Positions 4,401-59,889 of a stretch of DNA of 64,000 nucleotides are shown here, piece after piece. This stretch comes from Watersipora subatra (Eukaryota > Bryozoa > Gymnolaemata > Cheilostomatida > Watersiporidae): positions 8,612,869-8,676,868 of the forward strand of contig NC_088711.1 of NCBI RefSeq assembly GCF_963576615.1, written 5' to 3'. The notes beneath the pieces were generated by a model. That model was not told the DNA's origin. It saw only the letters and a list, made by a program, of their open reading frames with translations, and ran no database searches. A program made the translations under genes and the position numbers. Every line of letters begins with the position of its first letter. Within the stretch, counting starts at the first letter, position 1.

Positions 4401-7400
4401 AAGAGCGTTAGAAAAAAGATTCCCTCACATTGGAATTGAACTTGGAAATTCCCTAGCCACACAGCCACCTCACCACATCCGAGAATAGTTTTGCACACAG
4501 CTATAGTCTAGTTGGTAGAGGGGGTCTGCGTGCACCCCCCGGAAATCAATTTCTAATTGATGTCTTCCTATGGGGAAAAATGTGTAGAAAACAGTTTGCT
4601 ATGTTAAAAATTTGAAATATTGTCCCACGTGCCTATTTTATGCAAATTAAGCCGCCATTACATGAAAATACTAAAATCGCTATAACTCCGCCAATGCAAC
4701 AGATAACTGCAAAAATAAGGTGTCTAGACCCAGGTTTTGAGGGTCTAGCATCAATATAAGACCAGTCTCATAGTGACCACATGTGTTCCTGACATGTAAG
4801 ATATGCAAATTAGTGCCGCCATTACTGAAAAACCTATTTTTACCATATCTTTGCAAATGTTATAGCAATCGTGAAGAACGTGTTGTCTGTACCCTTGTTT
4901 TATGGGTTGATGTTTATTATTAGACTATATTTGAATGTGCCTTTTGCTTATTTGTTTTATTATAATGAGATATAGTCAGGTAATGAGAGATTCTGAGGGT
5001 ACTTACCAATTAGTGTTTATTAAGCAGTGAAATATTTTTTATCATTTCATCATAGGTGGCAACACTTTACTGAATAGGAGAGGATGTGATTCATTGAATC
5101 CGTGTCATTTATATTGGATGAAGCAGTGTGTTTTTCAGCAATTTATGAATCATTCTAGGTTTATCTTTTCTAGGTTTATCATAATTTAGTCGGCTTATAG
5201 TCAGATAGGTAAAAGGTGTTTATATAATCTCTCAAGCTCTATTTGATAAGACAATTAATGCAATTACTTGCATGACTCAGTGTCATTGGTAGTAATATTT
5301 CAAAACACTTCATCATGTTGGTTATAGGCCTATACTTCTCATTTCAGAGTAATAGTTTTGGTATAAGTTCGCCATCATGCCAAAGCGAAGGAATGCTGAA
5401 TCTGCCAGCACTGAACGCACCAGCCTGAGCAAAAAGCCTGCTTCACCTGCACTTGTATGCATGCTTCATGTGTTATCCATCTCTGATCATGGGCCTTTTA
5501 CCCCACTCAGTAGAATCAAAGGAACTGCATTTGATAAACTAAAGCACCTTCATGAAATCCGAGACCTGCGGCTCTGTCAGCCACATGCATCTCCCTATCG
5601 TATGCAGTCTGTATGCGACCAGATTCCTGAGACTGTCCCCGAGGACCTTGAAAATAATGGGTATCACCGTCAGTGTTATCAGCGGTTCTCTGGCAATCTG
5701 CATCTTATAGAAAATAAGACAACTGAGGAACCACAGGCATCCACCTCGCTATTGCATTCACCTCGTAGACATTCAACTGGACCTGTCTTTTCAGAGGAGT
5801 GCATTTTTTGTGAGAAAGTAGAGATCAAAGGTGCTGATCGAAAAACTGTACGACCTGTCCATTTCTCATCTTGGAGAAACAAGGAAAATGCATGGGAACA
5901 AATTGAATCGAGAGCTGAAAAAATGGGCATGTTTCGGCTTCATAGACGTGTGAAAAATGTAGACCTCTTTGCTGTAGAAGCAAAACATCACCCATCATGT
6001 TTGAGATCATTCCACACCGCATTTGCTAACTTTGAACGCGGGGTTAACAGAGCAAATGACCCAAAGCGTACTGAACACGCGAAGATTTCGGCCGCTTATG
6101 AGAAGGCACTGAATTTTGTACGGGAGCACATTCGAACTCATGTCATCCAACGGAATGAAGTCCTGCGTCTAACATCATTGCGCTTGCTCTATATTGAAGA
6201 ACTGAAACGCAATGGGCAGGAGAATGAAAACTACCACTCAGAGAAACTCCTGAAACGTCTACAAAATGATTCAATCAAGGAGCATGTGTCCTTTCTGAAG
6301 GTTGATCATGACAAACTTGATGCAATTTCATTTTGGCTTGTGTACAATTCCAATATTTCGGTTAACGATGCTTTAGCACAAGCTTACACGCTTGGTAGCA
6401 AAGACAAATACAAAAACGCTGCTCTGCTTCTTCGCAGTAATATTCTACAGGCTTACAAAGACTCCAAAGTCCTCCCATGGCCGCCAACATTAGATGATAT
6501 GGACCTCAGCTGTGATGATCTACTACCATCTGATCTCATTCGTTTTCTAAGCATGGTGATGTCAAGAAAAGAAAACATAGATACAAGTGAAAAGATGAAG
6601 CGACTGGTATTCTCCATTGGGCAAGACATTTGCCGTGCAGTGTCAGATGGAAAATGGAAATTACCAAAGCACATGCTACTGTGTGTGACCGTTCGACACT
6701 TGTTTCGTAGCAAGCAGCTCACCAAGATATTGCACCGACTTGGTCACTCCGAGACATATGATTTTGGTTTAGAGATGGAAACTGCACTGGCCAAGGTCCT
6801 GGATAAGGTATCAACCTATCTCACACCCCAGATTGTGACAGGAGAGGGCAACATGGTATTTCATCGTGAGTGGGACAACCTCAACAAAACTACAACGAAT
6901 GTTCATGGCAGCAATATTGTCAACAGTGCTGGGGGAATCATGGTACAGGAGGTCAAGCCCGGGATCCAAAATTCAAATGTCCGAATGCTTCCAATGATGG
7001 ATAAATCCAAACAGCGTAGCTTGAAAGTTGATACACCAGAAACCCTCCCACCCCTGCACTTCACTCGTATTGGACCAGTGTTTCCAGATGGCTCTTCATT
7101 CACACCACCTGTTAAAAATGAAACAGTTTATACTACCAAGAAAGAAGAGTACTACGTCTGGCTCTTCAGCAGGTATATTGGAAGCAGTGGTGAACAGCCT
7201 GTGCCTGGACTAGGGGGGTTCATCTCTGCAACTGGAACTCCGCCACCAAGGAAATCAACTGTTGACTACTTTACACCTATTCATCAACCAATAACTGACA
7301 ACACAGTCGTTCGTGAGCTACTGAAGCGGTCTGAGGCAGCCACAGCCGAGGTGGGTCAGAAATGGGTCCTCAATACATTTGACCTTGGCGTTTGTATGAA

Positions 7401-10400
7401 GGCACTCCCCATTATTTGGCGTTGACCAGAAGAGTTTGCCAAACATGTTGTAATGATTGGCCCCTTTCACACATCCATGAACTTCATCGGCATGCTCACA
7501 GGCCACAAAATTAAGGGTTCAGGATACACTGAGATTCTCTTAGAGGCACAGCTTGTGACAAGTGGATCCATAAAAGGTGTTCTTAGCGGAAAAGCATATG
7601 CCAAGTCCCTGTTTTGCATTAAAACTGTTTGCGAAGCAATGGAAAGGCTGTTGATTGAACAGTTTGCTGAGGAAGAGAACACATTGATGATTGACAATCC
7701 TTCCACACTACTGGAGATTATCGAGTCATGCAACCGGGAGAACCTTGAGGACGCACTCAAAGATGACTCCACCATGAACCTTATCAGAAAGTATCAAGCC
7801 TACGAAGACAAAGTACGCCAGGGCCACTTGAGAAAGACTGCTACTTTCTGGATGTCCTTTGTTGATCAATGTCATCTCGTCTTCATGCTGCTTTACTCCG
7901 TTAAAACCAACAACCTTCAGCTGTTCCACTTCTGTAATGGAGAGATGGCACCACTCTTCTTTGCATTTGATGGGCAGAACTATTCAAGGTTTGTTGAACA
8001 TGTATTTCATCTCCTTGTTTCTTTGATAACTATAGAATGCCGAAATATACAAGTTGACTTATACAACCAAATACAGTGTCAGCATAAACACAAACACAAA
8101 CATGTTCCCACAAGTCTCTGTCTCCCTATTTTACAGGTACCTTGTTTGGTTGGAAGTCTATCTAACAAACATGGAGAAGATACACCCAGGGGCAAAAGAC
8201 CTACTAACCAAGGGTGGACTCGCAGTGGCAAGATCGATGATACCTGGGGCACTCAGTGCAGTTGACAAAACTATGGAGGAAACATTCATGCGGTTCGCCA
8301 AATCATCAGGTATAGTACCTGGTTCATTGAATGGCATAGACAATTATCATATTGATACATGTACACAGATGAAAACTTGGTTTTATACTTTTCAGGTGGC
8401 TTTGCTGGACTGTACAGTCAATTTGGGGCATACCAGAGGTGGTGTCGCACAACTTCCACGCGGGCCCAGTTTCATGAAAAGACCCTTGAAATGGCTGGCC
8501 TTCTTGACGATCCTGACTGCCCAAGGGCTGGGAGGCATCGCGAGCTTGAGAAGGCAGAGATAAAGAAGAGTGAGAAAGCTGTTCAAAGAGTCATCACTGC
8601 TGTCAGAAACTTCACGAATCCATTCACAATCCCAGATAAGGACAGGCTCTACTCCTTAGCCTCTGGTTCTCCTACATCCAAGGATGTTGAGAGGGATGTG
8701 CTGGAAGCTGACGCTGTAGGAAAAGCTGCAAAGGCTGACTTTATTACACGTTTGCAGAGCGGCCACCAAGGAAGCTTTTTCGACCCAATCAAAAGGAAGA
8801 AACTCAAGACCATGGAGGCATGCAACAAGAAGATCAAGCTCACATCATCGCAAGGAAAGGTAAGTTTATATTTCATTGAGCAAGTTATGTATTGTTAAGG
8901 GACTTTTGTACAATCTGTATTACAATATAAAATTATAATATATATTGTTATTTCAGGTCATACAGTATCAGGAGCAAAGCAATGTTGCATTCCTTCTCCT
9001 TGTGAAGTCACAGTGCCTAGATGAACCAATTGACTTGGATGAACTCATGAAGTACAGCCTGATGCCAGTGCCTCCAAGTATTGGAACATCAGATGGATTT
9101 TTTGCGAAGACCAACAAAGCCACCATTCTGCACTACCTGATGGAAGAGTTCAACCAAGATGAGCTGCCTTATCCAAAGGATGCCTTATTCATCCAGGATG
9201 GAATGGCACTTCTCCATGTCCTTTCTAACTTGCCCCCGACCTGTGGGGAGATCTGCCTTCAGATACTTGACCAGATGATTGCCAAAAAACATTTCTTGTT
9301 CTCAACTGACAGCTATTTTCCGGGATCCATCAAAGCTCAGGAAAGACTTCGACGTGGCAGCTCAGAGAGAATCATTCTTGCCGGACCAGCAACAAAAAAG
9401 CCATACGACTTCAAGGTGTTCCTTGCAAATGACGACAACAAGAAGCAGCTCTGTCAACTCATGCTGCAGGTATGGAGTGGCCAACAGGTGGCATCTAGAC
9501 TGGAGAGAACTGAGATGGCAGTACTGATTGTCGAGGGGAGAGCTCATCAGTTCGTTTCCAAAGAAGGCAAGGTATGTGAAATTGCACCTTTATTTTTAGG
9601 ATGACTACATTCATTTACATGTTAATCCAAAATATGCTCAATGACCTTTTTTGTTTCAGGTCGAGGTGCTTGAGATGCCCACTATATACAGTAACCAGGA
9701 AGAGACAGATACGAGAGTGGTGTTGTACCTACATCATGCTGTTGCTCTTGGTTACAAGAATGCTGTGGTTAGAACCCCTGACACGGATATCTTCGTGATT
9801 CTACTCTACCATGCCCATGCTATCAAACTGACTGTGTACCTTGATACAGGATCAGGAAAGCAACGTCAGCTCATCAATGTATCTGAGCTTGCACAATCAT
9901 TAGGGGAGGACTACTGTGCTACCCTTCTTGGCTTCTATGTCTTCACTGGGGAGGATTGTACCAGTGCTTTCAAAGGAAAAGGGAAGGTCGGTCCACTAAA
10001 AAAGCTTGAGAAGAACCCGAGATTCCACAAGGTGTTCAGAGAACTTGGGAATGACTGGAGCATAAATGGCCTAATGTTGAACCAGTTAGAACAATTCACT
10101 TGCTTGATGTACAGCCAAAGTCGTGATTTGTCTGTGGATGCCGTCCGATCTAAGATGCTTCGAAAGATGGTAGGAGAAAATGAAAAATTAACATTGAAAT
10201 CTAAGGTGGACTTTGCTCGCCTCCATCCATGTCTTTCAGCATTGAAGCCCCATGTCCAGCGTGTGAACCACCGGGTTTGTTTGTACAAACGAGCTAACGA
10301 ACCCATTTGTGAAAAGCCAAACCCCTACGACGAGGGCCAGGGATGGATAAAGACAGAAGAAGGCATGCTGGAACCATTGTGGTCATGTGGTCCAGTACTA

Positions 10401-13400
10401 CCTACCTCACTAGTTGATCTCCTTGAAACTATTGATGATCAGGAGGAAGCAGAAGATAATTGCGAAGACGAAGAAACAGATTCATTTGACTTCGACAGCG
10501 ATGAAAGCGATGACGATTGAAGCTTGTGATGACAGGGAACATTTAGATGATTTCCAGAAGCATCTATATCTTAATTTTTTTTTCTTCTTAATGTGCAAAT
10601 GACACTTGTGATGAAAAAACGACTGGTCTTATGATGTTCTTTCACCCTTAAAATACGAGTACAGGCAACACGTTCTTCACGATTGCTATAACATTTGCAA
10701 AGATATGGTAAAAATAGGTTTTTCAGTAATGGCGGCACTAATTTGCATATCTTACATGTCAGGAACACATGTGGTCACTATGAGACTGGTCTTATATTGA
10801 TGCTAGACCCTCAAAACCTGGGTCTAGACACCTTATTTTTGCAGTTATCTGTTGTATTGGCGGAGTTATAGCGATTTTAGTATTTTCATGTAATGGCGGC
10901 TTAATTTGCATAAAAAAGGCACGTGGGACAATATTTCAAATTTTTAACATAGCAAACCGTTTTCTACACATTTTTCCCCATAGGAAGACACCAATTAGAA
11001 ATTGATTTCCGGGGGGTGCACGCAGACCCCCTCTACCAACTGTACTACTATTACACTTGATCCCTCACGGCATACGGGACTGCCAGTGTACTAGTTTTCT
11101 ATAATAATAGATAGTTTTTCTTAGATGTTAGGTTTGCTTTTTGAAGTTATGTGTTACATCATTCATTGTTTCTAACAACTTATTTTCCGTTGTAGGCTTT
11201 TTCATTTGCAGGCTTCCTCTCTGGATGCACCGAAGCTTTTGTTATAAACCCATTTGAGGTGGTCAAAGTGCGGCTGCAATCAGAAAAAATGCAGTTCTCA
11301 GCTGTAAGTATTCATTCTAATAGTGTATGGGTTTATTTGGCTCTCACATAGGGCCAATACAGTGGTGTGCAAATATATTCTCCAACATGACTAATGTACG
11401 ATTTATAATATGACTAGTGAGAGGTGTTGAATTGTTATGCTCAGAACCGGCATAAACAAGCTTTATTGTTCACCGTGTTACCCAAATGAATTGCCTCGGA
11501 AAATTGCTGAAATGAGAGAAATTCGGAAATAGGCAAATTATTTTTGTGAATGTTAGTAGCCCTTGAAAGTGCCTTTCAAAAATTTAGGGTTAGCTTTTTC
11601 TGACAGCTTTTATTTTTAGTTTCTCATGTTATGCAAAGTCTTTGGAAATTCGGTTGTTTCAATAGCTTTCCACCCGTGGCCAGTATCAGTCACATATGTT
11701 ACAGAGTATCGCGTTCTTGTTTTCATAAACATCCTGATATTAAAATGCTCATCAAAACAAAAGTTAGCATCAAATGTATTTTGTAAACCATATTTGAAGA
11801 GCGTGACTCATGCAACCTGCTTCTGAAATATCAAAGTTTGATCTTCTTCGTTTGTAAAGAGGAATAATAACTCCACTTTTTTCAGATAGCCAAGTATTGT
11901 TTTAAAATGTGTGGCTTATTCAAGTGCTACTTGAGCGTGTTGCTAATAAGCTAACTATTGCTAAAATATTTGGCTTTGTCGATAAATCTCTCACGTGTGT
12001 TCTAAACATCTTCACCACCGAATAGACACTTGGAGTGGATGTTCTTAAGAACATAGACAGGTGAAAATCTTACTCTAGGTTTGTGATAGAATACAGTCTT
12101 AACTCTAAATGTTTTGTAAGTTATGAAAAAATATTAAAGAGTTGAATGGAAATATCATGCGTATTAATTCCAAGATGATGTCTAGATAGAACGGTATAAA
12201 GTTGGTTTGATATTGAATATGACATAAAGGATTGTATTTGTCAATCCTTCACTTAGCACTTCATTGCGTTGGTATCTGCATCAGAATTTAAGCTTGCCGT
12301 TTGCTTAGTTCTTTTACATTATTAAATTAAATGAATTTAATGGTATTCTCAGGGCTGTTACTATTGACTGTGGCTCAATGTCATTACTCAGTGCTCCTGT
12401 GCAGTACAAATATTGATAATATATATTAAACAGCAATATGTTACAGCTGTGCTTATTTATTAATAAGATAGTTTAGCCATAATAGGGACCTTAGAGAAGT
12501 TTAACAACAAAGTCATCAAACAGCTTTAGATAAACACATTGTGGGTTTCCTATAGACTGGCAGAAATAGCTAGATAGGTGTGTAAACACTGAAGCTTGCT
12601 TGTTTCTGTCCAGCTTACAATTGGTAAACAATTTAGGTAATCACCCAACTAGCAATTTTTCAAAAAAATTCAGACAAGACATACAGCTTTTCAACTGTTT
12701 GATCAATATTCCATCATTTCCATGCTATAGTGTTGAACTTTAATAATATAAAAATATTTTCAATACCTTATGAAAAAATATGTAAAAGTGAAATAAAAAA
12801 TAATTAGGTGTCGACTAAATTTTGACAGGGTTTTGAGGGGTTTTGACTGTTAAGGATGAGTTGAATGCGCAGTACATCGTGAGGTCCTAATGCTACATTC
12901 CAGTCTGTGTGTATTTCATCATCTAGCAAAAGAATGCCTTTTCAACAGCAAGGGAAATCATTAGAACCGATGGATTTGGCTTAAAAGGGCTAAACAAAGG
13001 TTTGACAGCCACTATATGCAGACACGGTATATGGAATGCGTGCTACTTCGGCTTCTATCACAATGTCAAGGCCTTCCTGACGAAAGACGGGGTTAGTCGG
13101 CATGCGCAAGGACCTCCACACCCTTGACTGATTAGTCACGACTGCTCGCTAGCTTGTTCCTTTCACTGGCTGTTGCCTACACTTTCACTGCATGTATATT
13201 ATTATATTGTAGTTTAGTGCAGCTCTCATCCACATCTGCTAGTCCAGTTTGACCTCAGAGATTGCTAGACAAGAGGCAAGTGCACTTTCAGTCCTTTCCT
13301 GACTGAGTGACCTCTAATTCCTCGGTCTAGCTTATGTGAGAATTATTCGGGCTGTAGTATTCGTAACACGCGTAGGCAGGTGGCTTAATAAGATATTAAC

Positions 13401-16400: not shown

Positions 16401-19400
16401 GATCCAATATTTGCTTCATAGCTTACTGAAATTTTAAAAATGGATAGCTTTGGCACACAGTGATTTTCTATGAGAAACTGTTTTTTAAATGTTATAAATT
16501 CTTAAATAAAACTACCGTGAAAGCAACACTTTTCCTTTTAATATGCTGTAAGCTATTTGAGCACTCATATCTAATCTGGCTTGTTTCATCAAATCGAGTA
16601 CAGTATTCAAATGTAATTCACAGTTTTATTACACGATAAAATGTTGACTACAAAGAACTTGGCTATATACATATCTAGATCATGGTCCTAAGTTTAGCTT
16701 TGGAATATTTTTTGGTAAAACATGATGTGATACATGGCCATATTCAAATACCTTTCCATAAAAGTGTTAGATATTCTTTGTTCATACACGCAACTTAATC
16801 TTTGGTAGCCTCTCAATGTCTTTATGGAGATGCATGCTGATATTGAATGTATAATATTTGAAGAACTGATTGGCTGATTAACCCTTCATGTTGGTAGAAG
16901 CTTGCGGTTATTGTGATTTAGTCTACCAGTTTAGAAGAGTGAGAGCTCAAGATATGCAAATTCATTACTTATAGCCTGTGGTCATTAGTGTGCGAACCGA
17001 ATTGGCTCACAAAGTATTGTCAGGGCCCACAGTTCTGTCATTTTCATTTCTAGGTTTCTATCATATTAAGTATTGACTCAACTAAGTTTTGTTTCACACC
17101 TTATAATTGAGAAAACATTTTATGCTAATAAGTGTCTTTTAATAAAAAAAATTCTGAATTCATTTTTTGGCCTTATTGACTTGCTGATGTTTTATAGTTT
17201 TGTTATCAGAATCTCTGTAGCGGTCATCAGCTGCACTTAACCTGTACTCATAGTCACTCAGAGGTCAAGCAGAGAAATCAAAACATTAGTGTTTTGATAT
17301 TTACTACACCATGTTTACTTTATTGTATCAAGATTAGACACTGATCGTCACGAGCCTTACAGTTGTTTCCTGTAACAAGTACATTGATGGTCTAATGACT
17401 GTACGCTTGTACGGATGTTCGTTATATTCCTGGAAAATAATCGTTATAAATATCTATGTCTCAAGGTGATCCATGCAAATAATAGCGGGACTAGAGACTG
17501 TATGTTATATTTTCATGTTGCGCTAGTTAGATAATGAGTAACAACAGAGTAATTATTGACGCTGGCAGCCAACAGCTCATTTGATCAATGATTAGGTTCC
17601 CATTTTACTGACCAAGATTAGATTTCAAAAATACAAGTTTTTATGGAGATGCATGCTTACATTGTATGTACAATATTTGGAGGACATTGGTTGACGGACA
17701 CCTCGTATTGGTAGAAGCCTTCGGTCATTGTGAACTAGTTTAGTTTGTTTACCATTGAAAAGATTTTCCAAGTGTAGATAAATTGACAGAAAGCTTCTAG
17801 TTTTTTTGAGACGCTTCTATTGTCGAAATGGCGTCCTCTGTTTTGTTATAGATAAGTAAGGATTTGATACTGGTTACTATACTGGAAACCTTTTTTATGA
17901 AGGTCACTAAGCATGTACCATCAATGGTTTTGTTCTTGCTACTGTCATATTTGTAGATACCTTGATTTGTTTTCATTTTCGATAGATTCTGATTTTTTTT
18001 CCAAATGTTGATATCATGGAGCACAAACGTTTACATTGAAGCCTACCAGCTTCACACTCCATAGGATACATGTATGTACCTAAGTACATGTTGCCGAAGT
18101 TGTTAGATGTTGGGACTGCACATTCTGAGTCATTTTTCCAGAACTAGAAGTTCAGTCGAGCCTCCAAGTGGTATTTACACTCGTATTAGTAACTGAGCAT
18201 CATGGTATTGACCTTTGTAATTTGAATATACCGGAAAAAAACATTATTTAATCACCATGGTGTTCTATTTTTCAACCCTTCTCTTAGCATGGTGCCTTAT
18301 TAGAAAAAGTGTTGAAATAAAGGGTTGCGTTGTATTTTTCAAACACCTCGTCAGAATATACAGAAGGCAAATTTAACCCTTTCACAGGCGAATCAAATGT
18401 TGCCTATAATTTGCTCTCTCCTTTAGTGGTTGACATTAAGCCTTTGAGTGGACGAAATTTGCTAACTTATCTCCAACTTGTCTTAAATCTCTTAATAAAT
18501 ATGCACGAGGAAGCTGATACATGTCTCCACCAGTTGATAGCTATTGCTTGCAATTAGCCTGCTATGATCTTATAGCCTGTATTGCACTTTATTGATGCTT
18601 TGAAGTTTTCTATTTCATTCTAAATTTTACGGTATACTTTCGTTTTGCAACTATACTTAACAAGAAGTTGCATAAAAGCTCATTGCACTCATTGATATGT
18701 TTGTTACGGTTTGCAGCCAAAACAGGCTTTTTTAATGTGCAATAGAAGAGGAGTTGGGAACGTCGATCCATTGTAAGCAGTTTCTCATTGTAGAAGGTAT
18801 CGCAATCATCTATGATCGCAATCATGCTATCAAATAATAGGCTACAAATCTGAAAATTTAAAAGTTATATAATAATCTATCAAATGCTACAAATATATAT
18901 ATATATTCAAGAACAAGTGACAAACAAACCATATTTATAACATATTCAGAACCAAAAATTAACATTTTAAAACCAAAATTTACATTTTCAAAATAAAATA
19001 TTACCATTGTTTGCTCAGCCAGTTGCGTTCTGATTGCTGTTTTGGTTTGGAACCATTCTATATTCTTGTGGCTGTTCAATACCTTCCACAGTGTTTTCTG
19101 ACCTCGATTCCTTTTCTGCACTGCAGAGCTAGTCGACATTAGTGTCCAAACAATTTTTAGCCGAGCCAAGCTTTTACGCGATGCCATTTAGAATACACCT
19201 CTCACGCAAATAAAGAAAAACGCGTGGAATCAAAATAGCCTCAAAATATTAGCCTCAAAATACGTCCTAGCGCAGATTCCATCGTAAACGCGCAAAACCT
19301 TTTCACATACATCGAAGTATCAAGAGATCAAAAAAATGAAGCTTTTATTAGCCTGACACGGTTTCTAATTATTTCTATGGCGTTGCGTTCAAAGTTTTAA

Positions 19401-22400
19401 CCAAAGAAAACTATAGAGACTTGAGTTTGAAAACGGAATTCAATACGAACAGAAACAATGAAAGCATTAATTGTAATTGAGTCATCATTTGTACAGTTTT
19501 GTGGACACTTTTCTGCTGATCACTTGCTATTATGGGTTCGTAAAGATGGAGAGTGTCAAATAGTGTCAGTCAAATAGAAGTGGCATTCAAGTAAAGGGTA
19601 GCGCTCTATTTTCCAAATCTCTCATAGTGTCATTCAAATAAAAGTGGCATTCAAATACAGGTTTTACTTTTACGCCATAGTAAAAGGTTATGTTTAAACC
19701 ATAACTGTCACGAACAACTTTTATCGTATTTACTAGGTAAATTAGACACGCTGATTCCGATTTTGTACTCAAAATAAAGATTAGTCCACTAACCTTCAAA
19801 GTCATTTAGGCTTTTTTAAAGCGTTTCAATATCCGTTTCAAAAATAACACAATCGGCATTACAAGCTCCGCCCATAAATATGTGACGAAACCTAGCTTTT
19901 TCAGAAACGGAAGTTAGGAATGTTTAGTCCGATTTAGAATAATAGAGATGGGTGTCTTAAAACCCATTATTATCTAAATCCAGCCTGTAAAATAGTTTCA
20001 ATTTTTTATGAAAGGGATATAAACTATTTAAAATTGCTCGCAGCTTGTTACATGACGTTTAAATGGGCTGGACGCCGAGAAAAATGAGCTCAAAAAGCGC
20101 GGTTTTATCACGAGCTAGCGTTGTTATTGCGCTTTTTAAATATGCAATGCTAAATAGCTTATCTACCTTTCAGAAAAGACTGATATTATTTTTAAGGCTG
20201 AATTTAGATATTAATGAATTTTAAAACACCCATCTCTATTATTCTAAATCGGTCTAAACATACCTACGTAACTTCTGTTCCTAAAAAGCTAGGTTACGTC
20301 AAGTATTTATGGGCGGAGCTTGTTATGCCGATCGTGTTGTTTTCGAGACCGATATTAAAACGCTATAAAAAGTTCTTCATTACTCTGAAAGTTAGTGGCC
20401 TAATCTTTATTTTGATTACAAAATCGGAATCAGCATGTCTGATTTACCTAGTAAATATGATAAAAGTTGTTCGTGGCAGTTATGGTTTAAGGAATGAGTT
20501 AGGAGGGTGCTGCACGGTCTGCTGAAGTATAATCAAGTGGGAGAGAAACATAATTCTATGAAACACTTGAAATACCTGAGAATGCAGCTTGTTCTCGTCT
20601 GGATGGGCAGACACTTGGCCGCTTGCTTAATCTTGAGATGGGATCTGGCAATGCCAAATATTTCCATGGCTTGAGTGGCTGAGATGAAAGCCGGCTTGGC
20701 ATTGGAGGAGTTTGTATTGTAAACAATTTACAACAGCTCTGCTATTTTTAGTTTGTTAATACATTAACAATAATTGTTCTGCGTGAAATGGATATGGCTT
20801 TTCACAATTGGTTACACAATAAGTAGATTGACTTGAGACGGCGGAGACTGCTGAAGGGTTTGTTATGAGCCTCTTCCATATCTTGTTTCGATAGCGAGTC
20901 AACATATTCTTGTGTGTTTTGGCAAAAGTTCATTGTTTGGAGTGAGACTCTCAACAGATTTTATTCCTTGAGAAAGAACGAAAAACTTTGCTTTTGGTGC
21001 AGGCTTGCTGCAGCCACACTCCTCGTTTTCTGAAATAACACTCCGGTGCCTGAATCTTTGCCAAACATTGTAAATTTGAGCCTCCTGTATGACAGAGTAT
21101 TAAAACTCTCGCCTTCGAACCTGATAAAGAGTGATATAGACTGGCGATTGTAAACTCTCAATGAGTAAAGATCAAAATGACTCAATTTAAAATTATGTCA
21201 CTTTTAGTTTCTAAATCTATCGTTAATAAGTAAAAATGAGTAATTTGGTATAGTTTTTGTCCTGATAGGGTAGAAAAAAAACTAAAAATTGAGAGGATTG
21301 TTTGGAAATTTGTGATTGCCTTAAATGGCGTTGATAACGCTTCTAGGTCAACTATACTATTACTAACTTTTGCTCTGCCACACCTATACGTGCCTGTTAA
21401 GTTTGCTGACGTCTGATACCTCTATTTCCCACCCAAAAGGTATCAGAATGTTTTACCAGAGTACTGCCAATTAACCACAGACAGCGGATTTGTATCGTTA
21501 ACATTTACTTTTTACCTGTGATCAAAAGTGTGGCTGGAGAAGTGGGATAAAGTGTTTGTATGATTAGTCTTAACTATATTGATATAGACACTCTATTGCG
21601 TCAATGCGCGCATTGTGTATATCTATTGCACGCATTTGATAGGGTAACCAGGCCTAGCTATACCGAAATATATTCTCCATCATTCGATAATCGCTTCTGT
21701 TAGAGAGTACCAATCCATTACCTTCTGCCTAATGTCCCCTTCTAGATTTTCTCATTATTGTATTCAACCCGTCAATAGTTGTGTCATTGATTGATATCTT
21801 TCAGAGCTTCTTCACTTGACAACACATAAATCTTCAAGTTATTTAGGTCATATTTACAATATAACTCATTTTTGTCCGTTTAGGATTTGTCTGCCCTCTA
21901 TCAGTGTAATGTCTAATACAGCATGTATCAAATTTGTTGAATGTAATGCTGTATTGATAGCATAGAAATTATCTTCTCTGGGCGTGTAATATAACATCCT
22001 GTTCTAACGAATCTTTTTATAATGTTTGTTATCACATGTCGACTATAGTTTTATAATTAGTTTTGGCATTCTAATTTGAAACAGCAGTATACTACTTGCA
22101 CACACATTAGCTGTTGACAGCTCATCACTACTAACACTAGACTTTAACTTATAAAAGCTACTGTTATTCCACTATTTAAGCGCTGCTCTTTACAGTGATT
22201 GCAGAGACACTATCTAGACACAGTGTTGAAACCATAGACCTATTAACTATACCAACTATTAAGTATAGTTAGTAGGTCTATGGTTGAAACACTGCCTTTT
22301 AGTAATGGCGGTTTTCTCATCGTTCCAACTAGTTCTTTCCCCAACTCTTGCAAGTTCGTCATTCCTTTGATTCCCTAAATAGTCTTCATCCTTGATTATA

Positions 22401-25400
22401 GCATCAACTTCTGCTAGCATCCTTTTTCTGTGTGAAAGATTAGCTGAGGTACATCTACAGTATTTACGAGACTTTCTAGAAATCTTTGCATTATTTTAAT
22501 TATATATACCCTAAGCATAAGTCAGTACTACTATATCACCAATAACAATAATATATCTACTTGCATCGTCTGCTTGGCATTTAACAAAAGATTATGGTTC
22601 TTCTGAGTAAATATTGATGAGGGGGAGTACAAAAACACCCACTACATGGTACTGGAATAATACCTTACTGTGTCTCTCACTGCTAGATGGAAAACTTGTG
22701 TTAGCGCCATTCCGGGCAAGTTGAAGTTTATTCTTTCTTTAAATAGATCTCAAGCAAAACCAGATTGAATTAAATCTCTTGATTTTATACCGTCTCCCTT
22801 CGCTGATGTGATGCGTAGCACCATCATGTTTTACACGCATAGGTTTAGTCATGGCTGGTGCTCTGGTGTATAATATGACATTGCTGGGCTAATCCAAATA
22901 AATACTATACATTTTACAAGCAAATTGACTTGCAATGTTTTAATTGTGTTTATATTGAGTTTATTGTATAAACTAATAGAATTGAAGCAGTAGCTGTAAA
23001 ACGGTAGAAAGATATATTGGCTAGTAGTGATGGAGTTGACATTATTAAGATGAATCTATATAACTTTAAATTGAAAGTTTCTAACTTCTCTTTTTCATAT
23101 TGCCTTTCTTTATCATACATTTAGTAGGTTCAATTGCTCTCCGGCACACAGGTGAAACACGCTCATTCCTTACCATTGAATGATATCGGTACAGTCAAGC
23201 GCCAAACCTTTGGGTCAAATTTAGGTTAATATATATAAATGGCTCCCACGCAATCATTTATGCATGTTTTATGGATCAGTTCCGGAATTAAATGAGCTTC
23301 CAGAAACCGGTGCAATATATTGTAGGAGTGTATACCTTTAAATATGTCAACAAACATATTTTTAAATTCTATCATCATGAGTGATGATCTGGAAATTTTA
23401 TCGGTTGCATAAGTTCATGCAATACAACGTGATCTCTATTCTTGTGATCGTTCGCAGTGAGACGCTTGCTACTATGGTGAGAATAGGCTTGCCACACCTT
23501 TTCCTATACCTTTTGGTTGTCAAGATTCAATGAATGGGTAAAGAATGTGTTTCTATATCTGATGAGAAGAAGAGATGCTAGCTAGACACTTTTCTCACTG
23601 TTATAACTACATATTTGTTTCTTATCTTTCAGAGTTGCTGCCCTTTACAAAGGCCTGCTGCCCAAGATAATGCGACTTGGACCTGGTAAGCATGCATTTT
23701 TACAAAATATAGACATGTCATTTCTACATGGAATACTCAGGGGAGAGGGATGTGTGGTACACCAGCTATTTTAATGGTACTGAGCGTAGCATCTGATAAT
23801 AAACATCTTTTCCAACACTATTGAGAATAGTATTGCCACGCCTCACTATGTAGTGCGTAAAGCAGTTTCAGCGATATCCGTGCGCCAATTTGTTGTCGCC
23901 AGAAAAATATTAAAAATAACCACGCAACTTCTATAGAAGATAAACCGAATGTATTGATTCACGATACAGTCAAACCTTGACCTATGAAGTTATTTAATTG
24001 AAAAATTTGGGTCCTTTATATTGAAATAGTTGTATGTTGAAACTACTGTCTGTTGAAACTACTGTCTGTTGAAACTACACTCTGTTAAAACCATTGTATG
24101 TTGAGACCATTGTATGTTGAAATCATTGTATGGTAAAACCACTGTATGTTGCAACAGTTGTATGTTGAAATCATTCTATGTTATATGTAAAATCTAGGTG
24201 AATACCGGGCATTGCACGGGCACTAAAAGTTTGTGTGCAGAAAATTCACTTATATTTAACATACAACATTTACCATTCCAACTTAAATGAAGGCGTTTAT
24301 CTATTTACCGTAAAACCTTTCTTTGAACGCCATGATATTCTATTTGTCAACGCTTCCTTAGTGTGGCGATTTATTAGAGATGACGTTCAAATAAAGGGTG
24401 GTGTTGTATTTTCAACCACCTTTTCAGAATGTTGAGAAGATAAATTTAACCCTTTGTCGGGCGAATCGAATGTCACCGGTATTTTGCTCTCCTTCGGGCG
24501 GTGCAACATTAACCCTTTTGGATGCAAAAAATTTGCTAATTCGCTTCCAACTTGTTGTACTCCAACTCTTTAAATAAATACGTATGTACGAGGAAACTGT
24601 TACATGTACATGTCTCTACCGGTTGATATCTTTTGCTTGCAATTAGTCTATGATGTTCTTATAGCCTGCGTGGATATTTGTTGGAACTTTAAATAAGGTT
24701 GCATAAAAGCTCATTGCACTCATTGATAGGTTTTCCTGCAGTTTGCAGTTAAAACTGGCTTTTTATGTGCAACAGAACAGGAGTTACGATCGTCAATTCA
24801 TTGTAAGCTGAGTTCAGATTAACGCAATCAGGGTATCAAATAATGTGCTATAAATCAGCAAATTTATAAATTTTATAATAATAGTCGATAAAATGTTACA
24901 AATATATATTCAAGAACGAGTGACATAAACAAACCATAATTATAATACATGCAGAAACAAAAATATTAGCATTGTTTGCTCCACAGGTAGCGTTCTGATT
25001 GTTGCTTTCGTATGGAACTATTTCATCATCTAGCTATTCAATACCTTCCACAGTGCCTGCTGACCTGAACTCCTCTTCTGCACTGCTAAACTAGTCGATA
25101 TTAGTGTCCAAACAATTTTTTTAGTAGAGCAAAACTTTTATGCGTTGCTATGTGATAAACTTTTCGCAAAAATAATGATAAACTTTTAGCCGAATGCGCG
25201 GCTATCACAAATCGTTCAAAGCATCGCAATTGCTAAAACTTGAAGTATCAATACCGCATTAAAATCAAAGAACTATTATTAGCCTGATACAGTTACTAAT
25301 TCTTTTTATGGCATTGCAATCAAAGTTTTCAATGAAAAACCTAAAGACTTATGAGTTTTAAAACAGACTTCGATACGAATAGAAACAACTGGCGAATTAA

Positions 25401-27798
25401 TTGTTATTGGTGTAATCGATTCATTATTAGCACATTTTTGGGGACACTTTTCTGCCGATCGCTTGCTATTATGGGTTCATAAATATTAAAAATGTCAAAT
25501 AGTGGCGGTTAAATAGAAGTGATCTTCGATTAAAGGGTGGTGCTCTATTTTTCAACCCTTCTCACATAGTGGCGCTCAAATAGAGGTGGCGTTCAAATAA
25601 AGGTGGTGGTTCAAATACAGTTTTTGCGGTATATATTTAATCACACCTACTTTTTTCATTTCCACTTCACCAGGAGGTAGAAAATTGATGTATTACACAT
25701 TTTTTAGGGTGGCAGACTCCCCAGTACCTCAGTAGGCTTATCAATCAACGAAATCTTATACAATTAGTTATATCTAAAGAATTTTATTTGTTTACTCAAA
25801 GTTTATTATATGAAAAGGAAAATCAACATCTTCTAAAACTTCATATCATGAAAAACACATTTTGTGCAGTTCAGAAAATTTACAGAAAACTAAGACAACA
25901 GCAAAGGTATTTAAATGTGAAATAGTTAGCAAGTAATAGTTAGATAGTCTGTTCTGCTACAATACAATAAAATTGATTTGATACTGATACAACGAGTACA
26001 AACTGAGAAAACAAAATAAAAATCATGAATATGTCTGATTAATAATAACAATGAGTACATAGAAGTTTGTGTATAAAAAAGATGATTGTTGCAGTAGAAG
26101 CTATTCATCCAAATTTTGAATACAGCCATGCTGGTACAAATGTAAAAATATGGTATCGGAATTAATGCATCCCCGAAGTGCGCGAGGGTAAACAATGTTC
26201 TTTGCCTGGCCGAGCGGAGAGATAACGTGAATCATGAATTCGCGGAGTTTGAAGGAAAAAATGTTTAAGCTAATACTTGAAGCAAGTACTGTAATGAACT
26301 TTTGTGATAAACATGCGTAACGAACTTACTATTCGTCTGTTCAAAAAAGGAAATGGCGCATGTTAGTATACTAATCCGTATTAAATAAGAATGTTCATTC
26401 AAACGAGAATGTTTTAAATAAAATTGATAGGAGATATTTATAAAAAATGAGTTTTAATTAAAACAAAAAATATCATAAAAACTGTAAATGAAGAAAAGAG
26501 GCAAAATTTTGTCTGTATTCAATTATTGTAGCGCGCAAACTGAAAGCCAAGCATGCTGGTATTTTCACAAGCGCTGCCTAAGGATTTGCTCAAATATTTC
26601 CTCAGTACGGAAAGGTTGGTGTAGTGTAATAGGTAATTCCTGTGTCCGCAGTCGGGGGCGTTTTGAGATCGAATCCTCTGCAAAGCTGAATTTTCATCCT
26701 TAAGACATTATCGCTATAACTGAACAGACCGACACTCACATTTATATATATATTTTATATATATCGGCTAATAAACAGTAAAATAGATTTTTATTGCTTT
26801 TAAATTTTGCATCGTAAAAATATCTGTCATTTACATGGCTTTCTCAAATCTTATAAGTCTAAGATTTCACCAATGAGTGGCTCGGTCATAGATCTGCTGT
26901 TTGGTGAACCCTGAGAATCTCATGTAATTGTGATAACTATGTATCTGCATATGTGTTTTGTATTTTATCATTGACCATCTACATTCTAAAACAAACAAAA
27001 TGATTTTGGTAAGACAAACATAAGTCTAGGCTCATATTGCTCACCACCTTAACTCAACTCAGGTAGCACTGAAGGTACATTCACACTCAACAGATAGACT
27101 GATGGTGATGCTCATTAGTGCAGTCAGTGTGCCGACAGATTTGCTGTTTTATATATAATTTTATCATAGGCAGTTTGAGACAGCAAAAATCACTCACAAA
27201 TATCCTTCTTCTAAATATGTCGTAGGTCAACTTGTCCAATGAATCGAGCTGTGTGAACCAACTAACACTCTAAAGGAAGGGATTGTATTGGTTTATGCGA
27301 GAGTGTTATTATTGCTAGGAGATGGTATGCTGTAGACTTGATTTTGGCTTCTGTTGAGACTAGTTGGTCAGTCAGATGTATCTATACATGTAGGTAGGCC
27401 AGGATGCAGTTAGTTGTCAACAAATAAACATTTGAGTTTCAAAGGAACTCTTGCTTAGCAGGTAGCCTTTTGTGACTCTGGTCAAAGTTATTCACATTCT
27501 ACCGCTGCTTTGGCTCTTTTTCTCTGCAGCATGTGCATTGGAAATGCAGGCTGCGTGTCACTTCATAATGCAGATTTTTAAACGGGTATAAGCTGGCTGT
27601 CTACCAAATTCCTTACCTCTTGTTACTAATTGTGGATTCGTTTGGCGTAGAATTGTATCTCATCGCATTCCAGAAAGATGCGTTAATATTCTGGAAATGT
27701 CGATCTAAGCTTGAAGCTGCCATATCTCTGTTACAGGTGGAGCTATCATGCTGATTGTTTATGAACATATGTTCGACTACCTCAAGCTTCACTTATAA
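1479..27798 (+). CDS. SLC25A21: Mitochondrial 2-oxodicarboxylate carrier, last six coding exons (5' partial)
   Basis: Exons read 1479-1605, 11196-11303, 12927-13091, 14439-14617, 23633-23685 and 27737-27798 (TAA). Each has an AG acceptor and GT donor and phases join without a frameshift. They give about 230 residues collinear with the C-terminal three quarters of SLC25A21; about 70 N-terminal residues lie left of the window. Landmarks: the end of repeat 1 with FYKGILPPILAETPKRA and FFTFEQYK; the repeat 2 carrier signature NPFEVVKVRLQ; GLNKGLTAT and RHGIWN; the repeat 3 signature IPWDVAKSRIQGPQP; then ALYKGLLPKIMRLGPGGA. From the family: an inner-membrane carrier that exchanges 2-oxoadipate for 2-oxoglutarate in lysine, hydroxylysine and tryptophan breakdown. 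Introns run from 1.3 to 9.6 kb and are filled with mobile DNA; the 9.6 kb intron after the first visible exon carries the nuclease transposon in the same orientation. Identification is near certain; the exact 5' end of the first visible exon is slightly less sure. Confidence 0.95.
1606..2429. other. SLC25A21 intron, nothing recognised
   Basis: AT-rich intronic sequence between the exon ending at 1605 and a Tigger element. No conserved ORF, RNA gene or repeat seen. Confidence 0.5.
2854..3084 (-). pseudogene. Tigger transposase C-terminal tail remnant
   Basis: The minus-strand reading contains QTSLDRIILKRPASRESE, a recognisable Tigger tail (SLDRFF-x-KRP-type). It lies in transposase order after the HTH fragment, which supports one internally deleted gene rather than two insertions. 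Confidence 0.6.
3260..3421 (-). pseudogene. Tigger transposase N-terminus, CENP-B/pogo-type HTH remnant
   Basis: From the methionine at 3421, minus strand, the reading MKDNAKKKRIITVDIKRK continues through KVTELAQQYDRN-like sequence (here CVTELAQQYDRNTSTI). This is the N-terminal helix-turn-helix of pogo/Tigger transposases and CENP-B. It then meets IKPKDY-like sequence and a stop at 3260, where the coding region is lost to an internal deletion. It is a DNA-binding-domain remnant, not a functional transposase. Confidence 0.75.
3699..4351. other. SLC25A21 intron, nothing recognised
   Basis: AT-rich sequence between the Tigger element and the Helitron-like unit. A 65-codon open frame at 4002-4199 has no recognisable domain and looks random. 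Confidence 0.45.
4510..4892 (+). repeat. Left terminal inverted repeat, 383 bp
   Basis: Matches the reverse complement of 10659-11041. The mismatches I count are near 4560, 4593, 4635, 4696 and 4886. It holds a C6 run close to the tip and an internal ggtctaga...gggtctagc repeat. Confidence 0.92.
5377..10520 (+). CDS. Transposon-encoded protein with zinc clusters and XPG/FEN1-like nuclease domain; one in-frame stop
   Basis: Exons 5377-7988, 8137-8309, 8396-8859, 8957-9571 and 9660-10520 join in frame (4,725 bases, 1,575 codons including the stop); introns are only 86-148 bp. The ATG has A at -3. N-terminal zinc-ligand clusters: C67/C80/H97/C100, and C142/C145 with H204 or H205 and C208. The middle holds WDNLNKTTTNVHG and GPFHTSMNF motifs that I recall from a widespread uncharacterised invertebrate family. 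The C-terminal part looks like the XPG-I region: E1302, E1303, D1305, then TPDTDIFVILL (D1329, D1331), then TGEDCTSAFKGKGK (D1387) resembling the FEN1 helix-hairpin-helix with its last catalytic Asp. The tail is strongly acidic. Codon 683 (7423-7425) is TGA, the only lesion seen; conserved sequence (PEEFAKHVV) continues beyond it in the same frame, so this copy is probably recently inactivated. Less AT-rich than the surrounding intron. Confidence 0.85.
10659..11041 (-). repeat. Right terminal inverted repeat, 383 bp
   Basis: Inverted partner of 4510-4892. The inner edge is 138 bases after the stop codon of the transposon gene, so any poly(A) site would fall in or near it; no AATAAA was seen in the gap. 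Confidence 0.92.
11304..12926. other. SLC25A21 intron, nothing recognised
   Basis: AT-rich, no coding exon or clear repeat seen. Confidence 0.45.
13092..14438. other. SLC25A21 intron, nothing recognised
   Basis: Less AT-rich than its surroundings in places. Open frames at 13336-13608 and 13724-13909 have no recognisable domain and look random. Confidence 0.45.
14618..15283. other. SLC25A21 intron with a degenerate direct duplication
   Basis: About 14731-14890 and 14925-15050 share order and wording (agctattgctttat/agctattagctttg, then ttagacagtt or gttagaaac, then taacattaacaataa and atatagaaat). This is an old local duplication of about 150 bp. Confidence 0.4.
15284..16068. mobile_element. 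Tigger-type MITE
   Basis: The left end CAGTCATACTTTGACATACG follows TA (15282-15283) and closely matches the left end at 2430. The right end reads ggaacactcgtatgtagagg and ends near 16068 before TA. At 785 bp it has no transposase remnant I can see, so it is a non-autonomous relative of 2430-3698. Confidence 0.75.
16069..18230. other. SLC25A21 intron with a 130-bp degenerate duplication
   Basis: 16806-16940 and 17637-17770 are imperfect direct copies (tttatggagatgcatgct, then ttggtagaag, then a cggt-attgtga block). The rest is AT-rich with no recognisable coding sequence. Confidence 0.45.
18231..19669 (-). mobile_element. pogo-like element of the CCGTAAAACC family, copy 1
   Basis: Starts CCGGAAAAAAAC after TA (18229-18230) and ends caggttttac near 19669. 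The subterminal zones repeat short blocks such as gtggcattcaaat. The interior matches copies at 24308, 35642 and 52776. The minus strand 19187-18858 keeps a decayed piece of coding sequence shared with the other copies. Confidence 0.7.
18858..19187 (-). pseudogene. Decayed transposase fragment in pogo-like copy 1
   Basis: The reading includes LMSTSSAVQKRNRGQKTLW and KTAIRTQLAEQ, parallel to SSTEDELKPEDIVEGI and NQNAAIRAND in copy 3 but frame-shifted between blocks. Only the C-terminal part of the original protein seems represented. Confidence 0.45.
19694..20490. mobile_element. Foldback element with about 270-bp inverted arms
   Basis: The left arm (from accataactgtcacgaacaa at 19698) is the inverse of the right arm (ending ttgttcgtggcagttatggt at 20486), with scattered mismatches over about 270 bases and a central spacer of roughly 250. 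TTAA stands directly outside both arms (19694-19697, 20487-20490), consistent with a piggyBac-type target. Because TTAA is its own complement it could equally be part of the arms. No coding capacity. A half-copy lies at 61500-61800. Confidence 0.75.
20491..22224. other. SLC25A21 intron, nothing recognised
   Basis: No conserved exon or repeat identified. The stretch 20500-20720 is noticeably less AT-rich but carries stops in all frames checked. Confidence 0.4.
22225..22290. mobile_element. 50-bp palindromic insertion with 8-bp target duplication
   Basis: GTTGAAAC occurs at 22225-22232 and again at 22283-22290. Between them lie 50 bases whose first 20 (catagacctattaactatac) and last 20 are inverted copies with one mismatch, around a 10-base loop. 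Perfect 8-bp duplications are typical of hAT elements. The end catagacctacta also occurs alone near 54474. Confidence 0.7.
22291..23632. other. SLC25A21 intron, nothing recognised
   Basis: AT-rich, no gene or clear repeat seen up to the acceptor at 23632. Confidence 0.45.
24030..24185. repeat. 16-bp tandem repeat, degenerate
   Basis: About nine units of the type tgttgaaaccattgta/tgttgaaactactgtc, with substitutions building up along the array. Confidence 0.75.
24186..24307. repeat. Dispersed repeat fragment
   Basis: ctaggtgaataccgggcattgcacgg and the following gcagaaaat...acatttaccatt match 245-345. The pogo-like element inserted at its right side. Confidence 0.55.
24308..25629 (-). mobile_element. 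pogo-like element of the CCGTAAAACC family, copy 2
   Basis: Begins CCGTAAAACCTTTCTTTGAA after TA (24306-24307) and ends ttttgcgg before TA. Subterminal blocks (gtggcgctcaaatag, aggtggcgttcaaat, aggtggtggttcaaat) are repeated near the right end. The interior, minus strand, keeps the same C-terminal transposase-like relic as the other copies (around 24960-25140), too broken to read through. Confidence 0.75.
25630..27736. other. Last SLC25A21 intron, mostly unassigned
   Basis: AT-rich except for a SINE-like unit at 26600-26750. Open frames at 25926-26195 (-) and 26488-26703 (+) have no recognisable domain; the second runs into the SINE. Confidence 0.45.
26604..26750 (+). mobile_element. tRNA-derived SINE-like element
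   Basis: GGTTGGTGTAGTGTAATAGG resembles a Pol III A box in D-arm context and, 40-50 bases on, GAGATCGAATCC resembles a B box. The following atccttaag...gaacagaccgac segment is shared with 29765-29893, which supports one SINE family. Confidence 0.55.
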
Positions 27799-35641: not shown

Positions 35642-37120
35642 CCGTAAAACCTCTATTTGAACGCCACCTCTATTTGAACCCCACCTCCAATTGACCGCCA
35701 TCCTGAGAAAAGGGTTGAAAAATAGACTGCCACTCTCCAATTGAACGCCACTTTGACATTATTTGATCTTTCTGATTTCTTTATCAACTGATCAGTAGAA
35801 AAGTGTACACAAAATCGTATTAATAATGAATCGTTTATATCAATAACAGTTCATTCTTTCATTGTCCAATTCTAAAGCTTTTCGTTTTTTTTGTTAAAAC
35901 TTTGAAAGCAACACTGTAGCAATAATCAATAACAGTCCAGGCTAGTAGTAGCTCTCTGATTAACGCAGTTTTTCCACTTCGAATTAGCCTACATATATAC
36001 ATTATGAACAACGGCTTAAATTTACGATGGTAGATGGAACTTGGAAAGCAACGCCACAGAAATAACTACTAACTATCTCAGGCTAATAGTAGTTCCTTGT
36101 TTAACGCAGTCCTAATACTTCGAAGGACATGCATATAAAAACCGGTTCGCAAGTTTTGGACCAAAGGTTATACGTTTAGCGAGCAAACTTTTAGCATTGC
36201 GTGTGTGCTAAGTGCAGCAGCACGTGAAAGTTTCTCACTGCCGAAAATTTTTTTGGATGCCAATATCGACTGGCTCAGCAGTACAGAAGATGAATTGAAG
36301 CCAGAAGATATTGTGGAAGGTATTGAACAACTAGAAGATGTTCATTCTATCGAAAGCAACAATCAGAACGCAGCTATCCGAGCAAATGATGGAAATAATT
36401 TTTGTTTCAAAGACATCAATTTTTGTTTCTGCATGTAATATAAATGTGGTTCGCTTATGTTACTTGTTCATGAATATATATTTGTATTATTTGATAGATT
36501 ATTGTTGTATAACTTATAAATATGCAGATTTATAGCATGTTATTTAATAGCATTTTGCTGCTATCTTAACACGGCTTACAATGGATCGATGCTCATAACT
36601 TCACTTCTATTGCACACAGAAAGCTAGTTTTGGCTGCAAACTGTAGCAAACATATCAGTGAGTGCAATGAGCTTTTATGCAAGATTGCTAAATATAGATA
36701 TAAAATAAAAATGTTTTCAACTTTAGAATGAAATAATAATTGAAAATGCCAACAAATCGCAAAAAAGGACACAGGCTATGTTATCATCGCAGGTCAATTG
36801 CAAACAATAGATATCAACAGGTAGAGATATTTTTTGTTTTTTTGATGCATATTTATTAAGAGATCTTTGACAAGTTAGAGGTAAGTTAGCATATTTATTG
36901 CATTCAAAATGTTTAATATCGGTCTACTGGAAAAAGAGGGCAAAATATAGTCGACGTTTGCTTCGCCGTAATAGGGCTAAATTTATCTTGTGAAAATTCT
37001 GACGAGCTATTTAAAAAATAGACCGCCAGCCTCTATTTGAATGCCGCCTCCGATTGATCGCCACCATAAAGGAAGGGTTGCAAAATAGAGCGCCATGGCG
37101 TTCAATTAGAGGTTTTACGG
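35642..37120 (+). mobile_element. pogo-like element of the CCGTAAAACC family, copy 3
   Basis: Starts CCGTAAAACCTCTATTTGAA after TA (35640-35641) and ends tagaggttttacgg before TA (37121-37122): clean inverted ends with a TA duplication, 1,479 bp. Both subterminal zones repeat the ttgaacgccacc motif. It is oriented opposite to the other three copies relative to its coding relic. Confidence 0.85.
36205..36438 (+). pseudogene. Transposase C-terminal fragment in pogo-like copy 3
   Basis: The best-preserved relic of this family: DANIDWLSSTEDELKPED, then IEQLEDVHSIESNNQNA. The same acidic, low-complexity tail occurs in 53559-53347 (-) and, broken, in the other two copies. Tails of this kind end jerky/Tigger-type transposases; the HTH and catalytic core are absent. 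Confidence 0.5.
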
Positions 37121-37122
37121 TA

Positions 37123-58819: not shown

Positions 58820-59889
58820 ATTGATCTTTAAACAATGTTAAAGAAAACACGTAGTTCTGTAGGTAGTAAACATAAAATACAAAAATACTTCACTAAGTCT
58901 ATTAGTAAAATGAATATAGCTTACACCGATGAAATCAGAAATATAATGTAGGCAGAGCGTAAATAAATGCAAATTTATTAGCAAGACAAGATTAAAATGA
59001 ATGGTAAGCTACAACATCGTAGTACCTTTAACATATCTAAGAGTTATCTAACGGTCTAATATCATTTAAGTACCATTGGAAAATTACACAATCTCCTCTC
59101 CTCGAACTACCCAACGGATATAAAATAATTGCCTTAGCTTTTAGAAAAATTGATATAGATCAATCGAGTTCGTTTCAAGCATCTACAGTCAACGCGTCTT
59201 GGATCATCGGCTTAAGGCATGGACAAGGTCGTGTAACGTAAGACATTGAATATGTCTATGATCAATGTGCTTATAATTCAAGAAAAGACAACTTCTTATG
59301 TTATTTTATCAAGAGATTAGACGGCTGATTTAGAGTATCTAAATTGCGAGTCACAGAGCTACGAGTTACTACTCCATGTAGCTTATACAACTCAGTTATA
59401 TTTTTTTCAAGTTGACCAACACAACAAGACATGAACTGCAATAGACTGAAAAAGATATATTTTACATCACAAATGGTATCTAGGAAAAAGCTTTATTACA
59501 AATTATAGCAAAATTGCATCAGGTTAAAAAGGTATATTAATGTTTAGAAAGCTTATACTAGACAAAATTTAATAATATTTCAACATTACAAACTGCTATC
59601 ATCACATACAAACTTGGGATTTATCGTCCCTGCAGCCATGAGCTCAGCTTATTACCTGTCACAAGCAACATAAATACTTCACAACATGAAATAAATATGC
59701 ATTTGGCGATGCATCTAGTCACAGCAGTTATATGCTTTTCAGTATATCGTTGCTAATCACCACACAAATTACTCCCAGTCTATATTACCTGCTGTACCTA
59801 ATCTTAAGCTCTAACTATCCGAAGATAATGTTTATCTTGGTATATATTCATCATCAGTCTCCCACACTAATGCCAAACTGGAACCCTGA
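58820..59889. other. Upstream region of the MARCH gene
   Basis: AT-rich; expected to hold the promoter and leader, but no TATA box or initiator could be assigned with confidence. Confidence 0.4.

Follow-up and report, generated by a model that had tools for sequence, protein, structure and literature searches.

A probable AcademX-type cut-and-paste transposon in the bryozoan Watersipora subatra that encodes a putative DDE core and a FEN1/XPG-like nuclease

In a 64,000-nucleotide stretch of the Watersipora subatra genome (contig NC_088711.1, positions 8,612,869 to 8,676,868, forward strand; hereafter the window), a 6544-bp transposon carrying a single multi-exon gene was found. The element inserts as a discrete mobile unit with 3-bp, rarely 4-bp, target-site duplications (TSDs), and it is recently mobile in this genome. 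Its protein probably contains a putative DDE transposase core, and its C-terminus resembles the PIN/XPG-FEN1 nucleases. Because both its nuclease and the length of its TSDs fit the published description of AcademX, we regard the element as probably a cut-and-paste transposon of the AcademX type, newly added to a known group and placed there by that description. The element and its terminal parts, including the terminal inverted repeats (TIRs), are as follows:

4504..11047, plus strand: whole transposon, 6544 bp; borders from 19 copies with TSDs
4501..4503, no strand: left TSD copy, CTA, 3 bp; from copy comparison
11048..11050, no strand: right TSD copy, CTA, 3 bp; from copy comparison
4504..4925, plus strand: left TIR, tip TAGTCTAGTTGG
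10626..11047, minus strand: right TIR, minus-strand tip TAGTACAGTTGG
4639..4762, plus strand: first diverged tandem module of the left TIR, a candidate protein-binding module
4802..4925, plus strand: second diverged tandem module of the left TIR, from the same local alignment

The two arms, 4504-4925 and 10626-11047, form the longest ungapped inverted repeat in the window (422 nt, 95% complementary), and the outer 383 bp of the pair are 98.7% identical with five differences. An earlier reading of this DNA from its letters alone (the original prediction) had described such inverted ends with five differences, which are present; its borders and TIR length were slightly off and are corrected here to 4504-11047 and 422 nt. 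The tips read 5'-TAGTCT-AGTTGG on the left and 5'-TAGTAC-AGTTGG on the right. In all 19 two-ended copies, the AGTTGG tip is directly adjoined on its outer side by TAGTCT at one end and by TAGTAC at the opposite end, and the element is therefore 6 bases longer per end than borders at AGTTGG would make it. AGTTGG as the true end was ruled out, since the outer six bases are constant in these copies and the TAGT..ACTA ends yield TSDs. The two modules of the left TIR gave a local alignment score of 76, against a maximum of 41 among 500 shuffles. The right arm mirrors this two-module layout, and the inverted repeat and the second module share their end. These modules may be candidate binding sites for the zinc clusters of the protein described below.

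When the source genome (784 Mb) was searched with a 391-base stretch of the left TIR, 40 places were scored at 97-100% (of 55 candidates). Twenty regions were taken from the genome, and with the one-ended copies L022 and L027 dropped, 19 copies with both ends, the window copy included, were compared. The TSD is 3 bp in 18 of these and 4 bp in one; mismatched (cross-paired) flanks agreed at 3 bp in 12 of 342 cases. Furthermore, a 33-base tip pattern with at most 3 mismatches matched 55 times genome-wide versus 0 times for the reversed control, which rules out a chance repeat. These 55 tips read as 26 head-to-head pairs (span 3.8-6.6 kb) and 3 lone tips, rather than as the single copy named at the outset as the finding that would speak against a transposon. 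One CT and one AC tip were present in each of the 20 pairs for which both tip sequences were listed, as well as in 3 more pairs from the TSD set. An empty site was provided by copy L026, which sits inside a long interspersed nuclear element (LINE)-like repeat with a reverse-transcriptase-like frame, as read by eye. Of 1385 candidate places for its joined flanks, 40 were scored, and all 40 are matched from base 1 through base 299 or 300; in one of these empty sites, read base by base, the junction is gapless with a single ATG. Copy number, TSDs and the empty site together rule out a host gene with accidental inverted repeats, and the predicted complete mobile unit, as opposed to a host gene, is borne out by the same three lines of evidence.

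Comparison of the arms and interiors of these copies bears on the history of the family. Left arms are 99.0% alike among themselves and right arms 98.8%, compared with 97.6% for the two arms of one copy against each other. Left and right arm differ at columns 5, 6 and 58, of which the first two lie at the tip, in every one of the 19 copies; most copies also differ at columns 91, 134, 195 and 386. The arm differences are thus mostly older than these insertions; being largely common to the family, they are a poor measure of insertion age, and their use as an age clock was ruled out. Against the window copy, 17 copies show an identity of 0.988-0.992. Among these, five are complete or almost complete in length (L028 lacks 37 bp of a TIR). 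In the other 12 a large internal deletion of 1.1-2.7 kb is present, accompanied in three by a small one. Some exon sequence on the transposase side is missing from every one of the 12, and 10 of them, judged by their breakpoints, also lack part of the nuclease; microhomology of 0-4 bp, as aligned, is seen at eight deletion junctions. One length class, 4924-4926 bp, accounts for five of the 19 copies, which lie at separate sites with the TSDs ATA, TAA, ATG, TCT and TAA. By mapping, four of the five carry a common deletion, L012 being outside that comparison. Since copies of equal length and equal deletion occupy different target sites, deletion derivatives have moved, presumably using the enzyme of other copies. 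The state of the reading frames weighs against our main reading: none of the six copies checked that are full length or almost so (the window copy and the five others) has an intact frame, with splice sites kept in all of them. The genome tip census contains further full-length copies beyond these six, among which an intact one may occur.

One gene of five exons with GT/AG introns throughout lies between the arms, which agrees with the multi-exon gene that had been predicted. It is 1574 codons long, a single TGA lies in frame, at codon 683, and its parts are:

5377..7988, plus strand: exon 1, with two zinc-cluster-like motifs seen by eye and the first part of the putative DDE core (D500, D669, E723)
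7423..7425, plus strand: in-frame TGA, codon 683, of the window copy (splicing/translation)
8137..8309, plus strand: exon 2, with E918 as alternative third catalytic acid
8396..8859, plus strand: exon 3 (GT/AG splicing)
8957..9571, plus strand: exon 4, with the first half of the FEN1/XPG-like nuclease (D1164, D1201, K1209, R1213)
9660..10520, plus strand: exon 5, with the second half of the nuclease (E1302/E1303, D1305, D1329, D1331, D1387) and the stop codon

Because of this premature stop, the window copy cannot make the full protein. The zinc-cluster-like motifs, C67/C80/H97/C100 and C142/C145/H205/C208, were recognised by eye, and no Pfam zinc-finger model matched the scanned protein pieces. 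Zinc clusters had also been named in the original prediction.

To place the C-terminus, the exon 5 protein was compared with the genome, in which 136 places of 481 candidates were scored. They consist of 28 matches at 79-100% that belong to the element's own family, some copies giving two, and 108 matches at 24-32% identity that represent diverged relatives. Six relatives were read (L057-L062, L061 being nearly identical to L059), and a nuclease alignment of 11 members, A3, was built. In A3, acids occupy seven FEN1-like positions in every row that reaches them, as listed from columns in which all rows are acidic, one of which owes an E to a misaligned exon-4 fragment; other acids besides these seven are likewise conserved. 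In the window protein, the seven are D1164, D1201, E1302 or E1303, D1305, D1329, D1331 and D1387, and they stand in the order of the seven active-site carboxylates described for FEN1, D34, D86, E158, E160, D179, D181 and D233 (PMC6009646). In addition, K1209 and R1213 are located 8 and 12 positions past the second acid, comparable to the FEN1 gateway residues K93 and R100 at 7 and 14 past D86. When PDB sequences were searched with a profile, seven chains were returned, of which the best four are Exonuclease 1, aligned at the SGCD motif with weak E-values of 0.065-0.079; an anthrax antigen and one other weak match (E 0.5-0.8) were regarded as chance. The structure of relative L059 was also modelled with AlphaFold2. 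This model is poor overall, with a mean predicted local distance difference test score (pLDDT) of 47.6, and its block means are 64-83 for residues 791-830 and, for the most part, 69-88 for residues 961-1110. Foldseek compared it with solved structures and returned Xrn1 as the best match (E 0.003, probability 0.99) and Rad2 with probabilities of 0.94, 0.89 and 0.66, the four best matches having E-values of 0.003 to 0.13. Among the best 50 of 143 matches, the highest probability outside Xrn1 and Rad2 was 0.21.

Several results weigh against this assignment. The L059 model falls to 25-49 over residues 861-940, the stretch with the second acid and the basic pair, and the Foldseek E-values, 0.003 and weaker, are short of 0.001. 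Moreover, Pfam XPG_I has 8 matches across the genome (E <= 10), none of them at element copies, and the element's own protein, in the pieces scanned, yielded no Pfam match at or above cut-off. Within the FEN1/XPG/EXO1/Xrn1 comparison, the element nuclease is too diverged for XPG_I. The profile check suggested beforehand succeeded in one part, with Exonuclease 1 as the top PDB match at a weak E of 0.065, and failed in the other, with XPG_I missing the domain. On balance, a PIN/XPG-FEN1-like C-terminus is supported, as had been predicted, by the seven acids in FEN1 order and by a predicted fold in which Xrn1 and Rad2 come out on top, the fold match being made through relative L059. A match of exon 5 to retroviral GP41 (E 0.0026-0.035, 16-18 bits versus a cut-off of 29.6), seen in one of the 11 A3 members, was regarded as chance.

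Several of the 108 diverged nuclease relatives lie in single open frames of more than 1000 codons, and some of the relatives may represent domesticated genes or else intact transposons with few introns. Relatives L058, L059, L060 and L062 end in a cysteine-rich, CXC-like tail, from which the window element differs in having no such tail. Pfam TCR matched this tail in two of the 11 A3 members (best E 0.00083); the tail is below cut-off in L059 and L060 and was recognised by eye in L062. A search of IMG/VR with L059 found no relatives.

Ahead of the nuclease, D500 (in WDN), D669 (in FD) and E723 are invariant in four of four sequences, namely family copy L010 and three relatives. By eye, E918 corresponds to a glutamate of L059 and L060, within a motif whose last residues are QRW. 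It is tentatively preferred as the third acid because it follows a helical stretch, with E723 as the alternative. Of 15 genomic matches to Pfam DUF6589, four coincide with loci that the nuclease or exon 1 protein of the element also matches: two are over or at the cut-off (C2:49.84 Mb and C10:7.18 Mb) and two just below it (C1:38.81 Mb and C1:62.57 Mb). The transposase half of some genomic relatives thus scores with DUF6589, whereas the element's own scanned pieces do not. The six strongest DUF6589 matches are absent from the scored loci of the element protein, where only part of the candidates were scored. Our literature search returned no paper naming DUF6589.

Three observations limit the case for a DDE core. 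D500, D669 and E723 are not the sole invariant acids in the four-sequence alignment; the AlphaFold2 model of the family's own transposase region has a mean pLDDT of 32 and does not show an RNase H fold; and the L059 model is poor in its transposase region as well. Nevertheless, a putative DDE core formed by D500, D669 and either E918 or E723 is probably present, judging from residue conservation. The original prediction had recognised no DDE core, a view that is probably to be revised, because diverged families share conserved acids in the middle of the protein and DUF6589 matches are seen in some relatives. A PDB sequence search with the transposase alignment gave one match (E 1.4), regarded as chance. 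The strongest DUF6589 loci include C6:52408474, C9:440697 and C6:57003771, and they may represent a second lineage of the element's superfamily.

Based on this layout, we propose that transposition would be carried out by one multi-domain protein with N-terminal zinc clusters, a DDE-type core and a C-terminal FEN1/XPG-like 5' nuclease. The zinc clusters would probably bind the TIR modules, and the DDE core would cut the 3' ends and join them to the target DNA at positions staggered by 3 bp. Cutting or trimming of the non-transferred 5' strand, or of flaps that persist once the ends are joined, might fall to the nuclease, in a role like that of TnsA beside TnsB, and the host would fill the remaining gaps. 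In Tn7, TnsA has a restriction-endonuclease fold and is a separate protein, unlike the fused nuclease of the element. There, TnsA cleaves the 5' ends and TnsB the 3' ends (PMC9527255), so that a recombinase for the 3' ends is likewise combined with a nuclease for the 5' ends, a likeness drawn by functional inference only. By this analogy, the fused nuclease could be the eukaryotic equivalent of TnsA, an enzyme for the second strand built into the transposon, which together with an RNase H core would cut both strands hairpin-free and set the 3-bp stagger, with DUF6589 as the transposase half; we put this forward tentatively, as a possible but somewhat doubtful reading.

Alternatively, the nuclease domain might be an RNA-processing or regulatory passenger of the Xrn1 kind that takes no step in transposition. 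The exoribonuclease Xrn1 is indeed the single best Foldseek match; however, the domain shares its polypeptide with the transposase, and FEN1-like acids are retained in families about 26-36% identical to L059, so we consider a passenger unlikely. A role for the nuclease in second-strand processing could be examined directly, since exact ends, TSDs, an empty site and a near-complete gene model are now at hand for a transposon with a probable DDE core and a FEN1-like nuclease, which makes a reconstituted transposition or cleavage assay possible. In addition, some DUF6589-scoring proteins are now tied to this transposon superfamily.

As to its classification, the AcademX nuclease is XPG-like, and Kojima 2020 is reportedly the source defining the AcademX and AcademH lineages. 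As described in the literature, AcademX has TSDs of 3 or 4 bp and AcademH of 9 or 10 bp, and the two, which belong to the same superfamily, are linked to a nuclease and a helicase, respectively (PMC10045372). Academ is listed among the DDD/E transposase superfamilies (PMC9587614), and 100 curated Academ elements are reported from bivalves, where they are abundant and were characterized by DDE/D profile matches, TIRs and TSDs (PMC10294476). The element resembles AcademX, by description only, in its 3-4 bp TSDs, its encoded nuclease and the TIRs on a mobile unit, in line with the "Academ relative" suggested originally, which fits the published combination of 3-4 bp TSDs and nuclease (PMC10045372). 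It differs from AcademH, with its 9-10 bp TSDs and helicase, in TSD length, and its protein gave no Pfam helicase match in the pieces scanned. It is further characterized by long TIRs of doubled modules and the fixed CT/AC tip asymmetry. Our literature search found AcademX named in one paper, and no paper joining Academ, transposase and PIN domain.

The Academ likeness is one of description, and no Pfam model is over its cut-off in the scanned protein pieces, which would suit a separate superfamily that joined a DDE-like transposase and a FEN1-like nuclease independently of Academ. TSD length and nuclease presence nonetheless fit AcademX as published, and the presence of 108 diverged matches within this genome points to a superfamily that is large and old and not to an isolated one; a separate origin is therefore improbable in our estimate. 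Transposition by the XPG-like nuclease itself with host ligation and without DDE strand transfer, for which the complete FEN1-like acid set beside a putative DDE fold might speak, is very improbable in view of the fixed TSD length (3 bp in 18 of 19 copies, 4 bp in one) and precise tips, the usual mark of DDE strand transfer, and of the invariance of D500, D669 and E723 in all four sequences.

In the window, Pfam Mito_carr matches at 1354-1614 and 11196-11303 flank the element on the same strand, and the element apparently sits in an intron of a mitochondrial-carrier gene. Other host gene pieces are found on the minus strand, namely a Ras-family GTPase at 42270-44145, which we take to be RGK-like, and a RINGv domain gene at 58403-58837. 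Scans of the 64-kb window for tRNA genes and Rfam families found none. A dispersed repeat, with copies 72-83% alike and some of them mutually inverted, occurs at 35728-37122, 52774-54115, 18237-20037 and 24303-25604. An inverted repeat of about 345 bp (19694-20037 and 20144-20490, 85% alike, with a short spacer) is possibly a miniature inverted-repeat transposable element (MITE) or a foldback element. A fragment at 63303-63710 matches the Pfam Mutator-like transposase PF20700 below its cut-off (E 7e-5), and at 60914-61266 a 21-bp tandem repeat of about 17 copies leaves several frames open on both strands.

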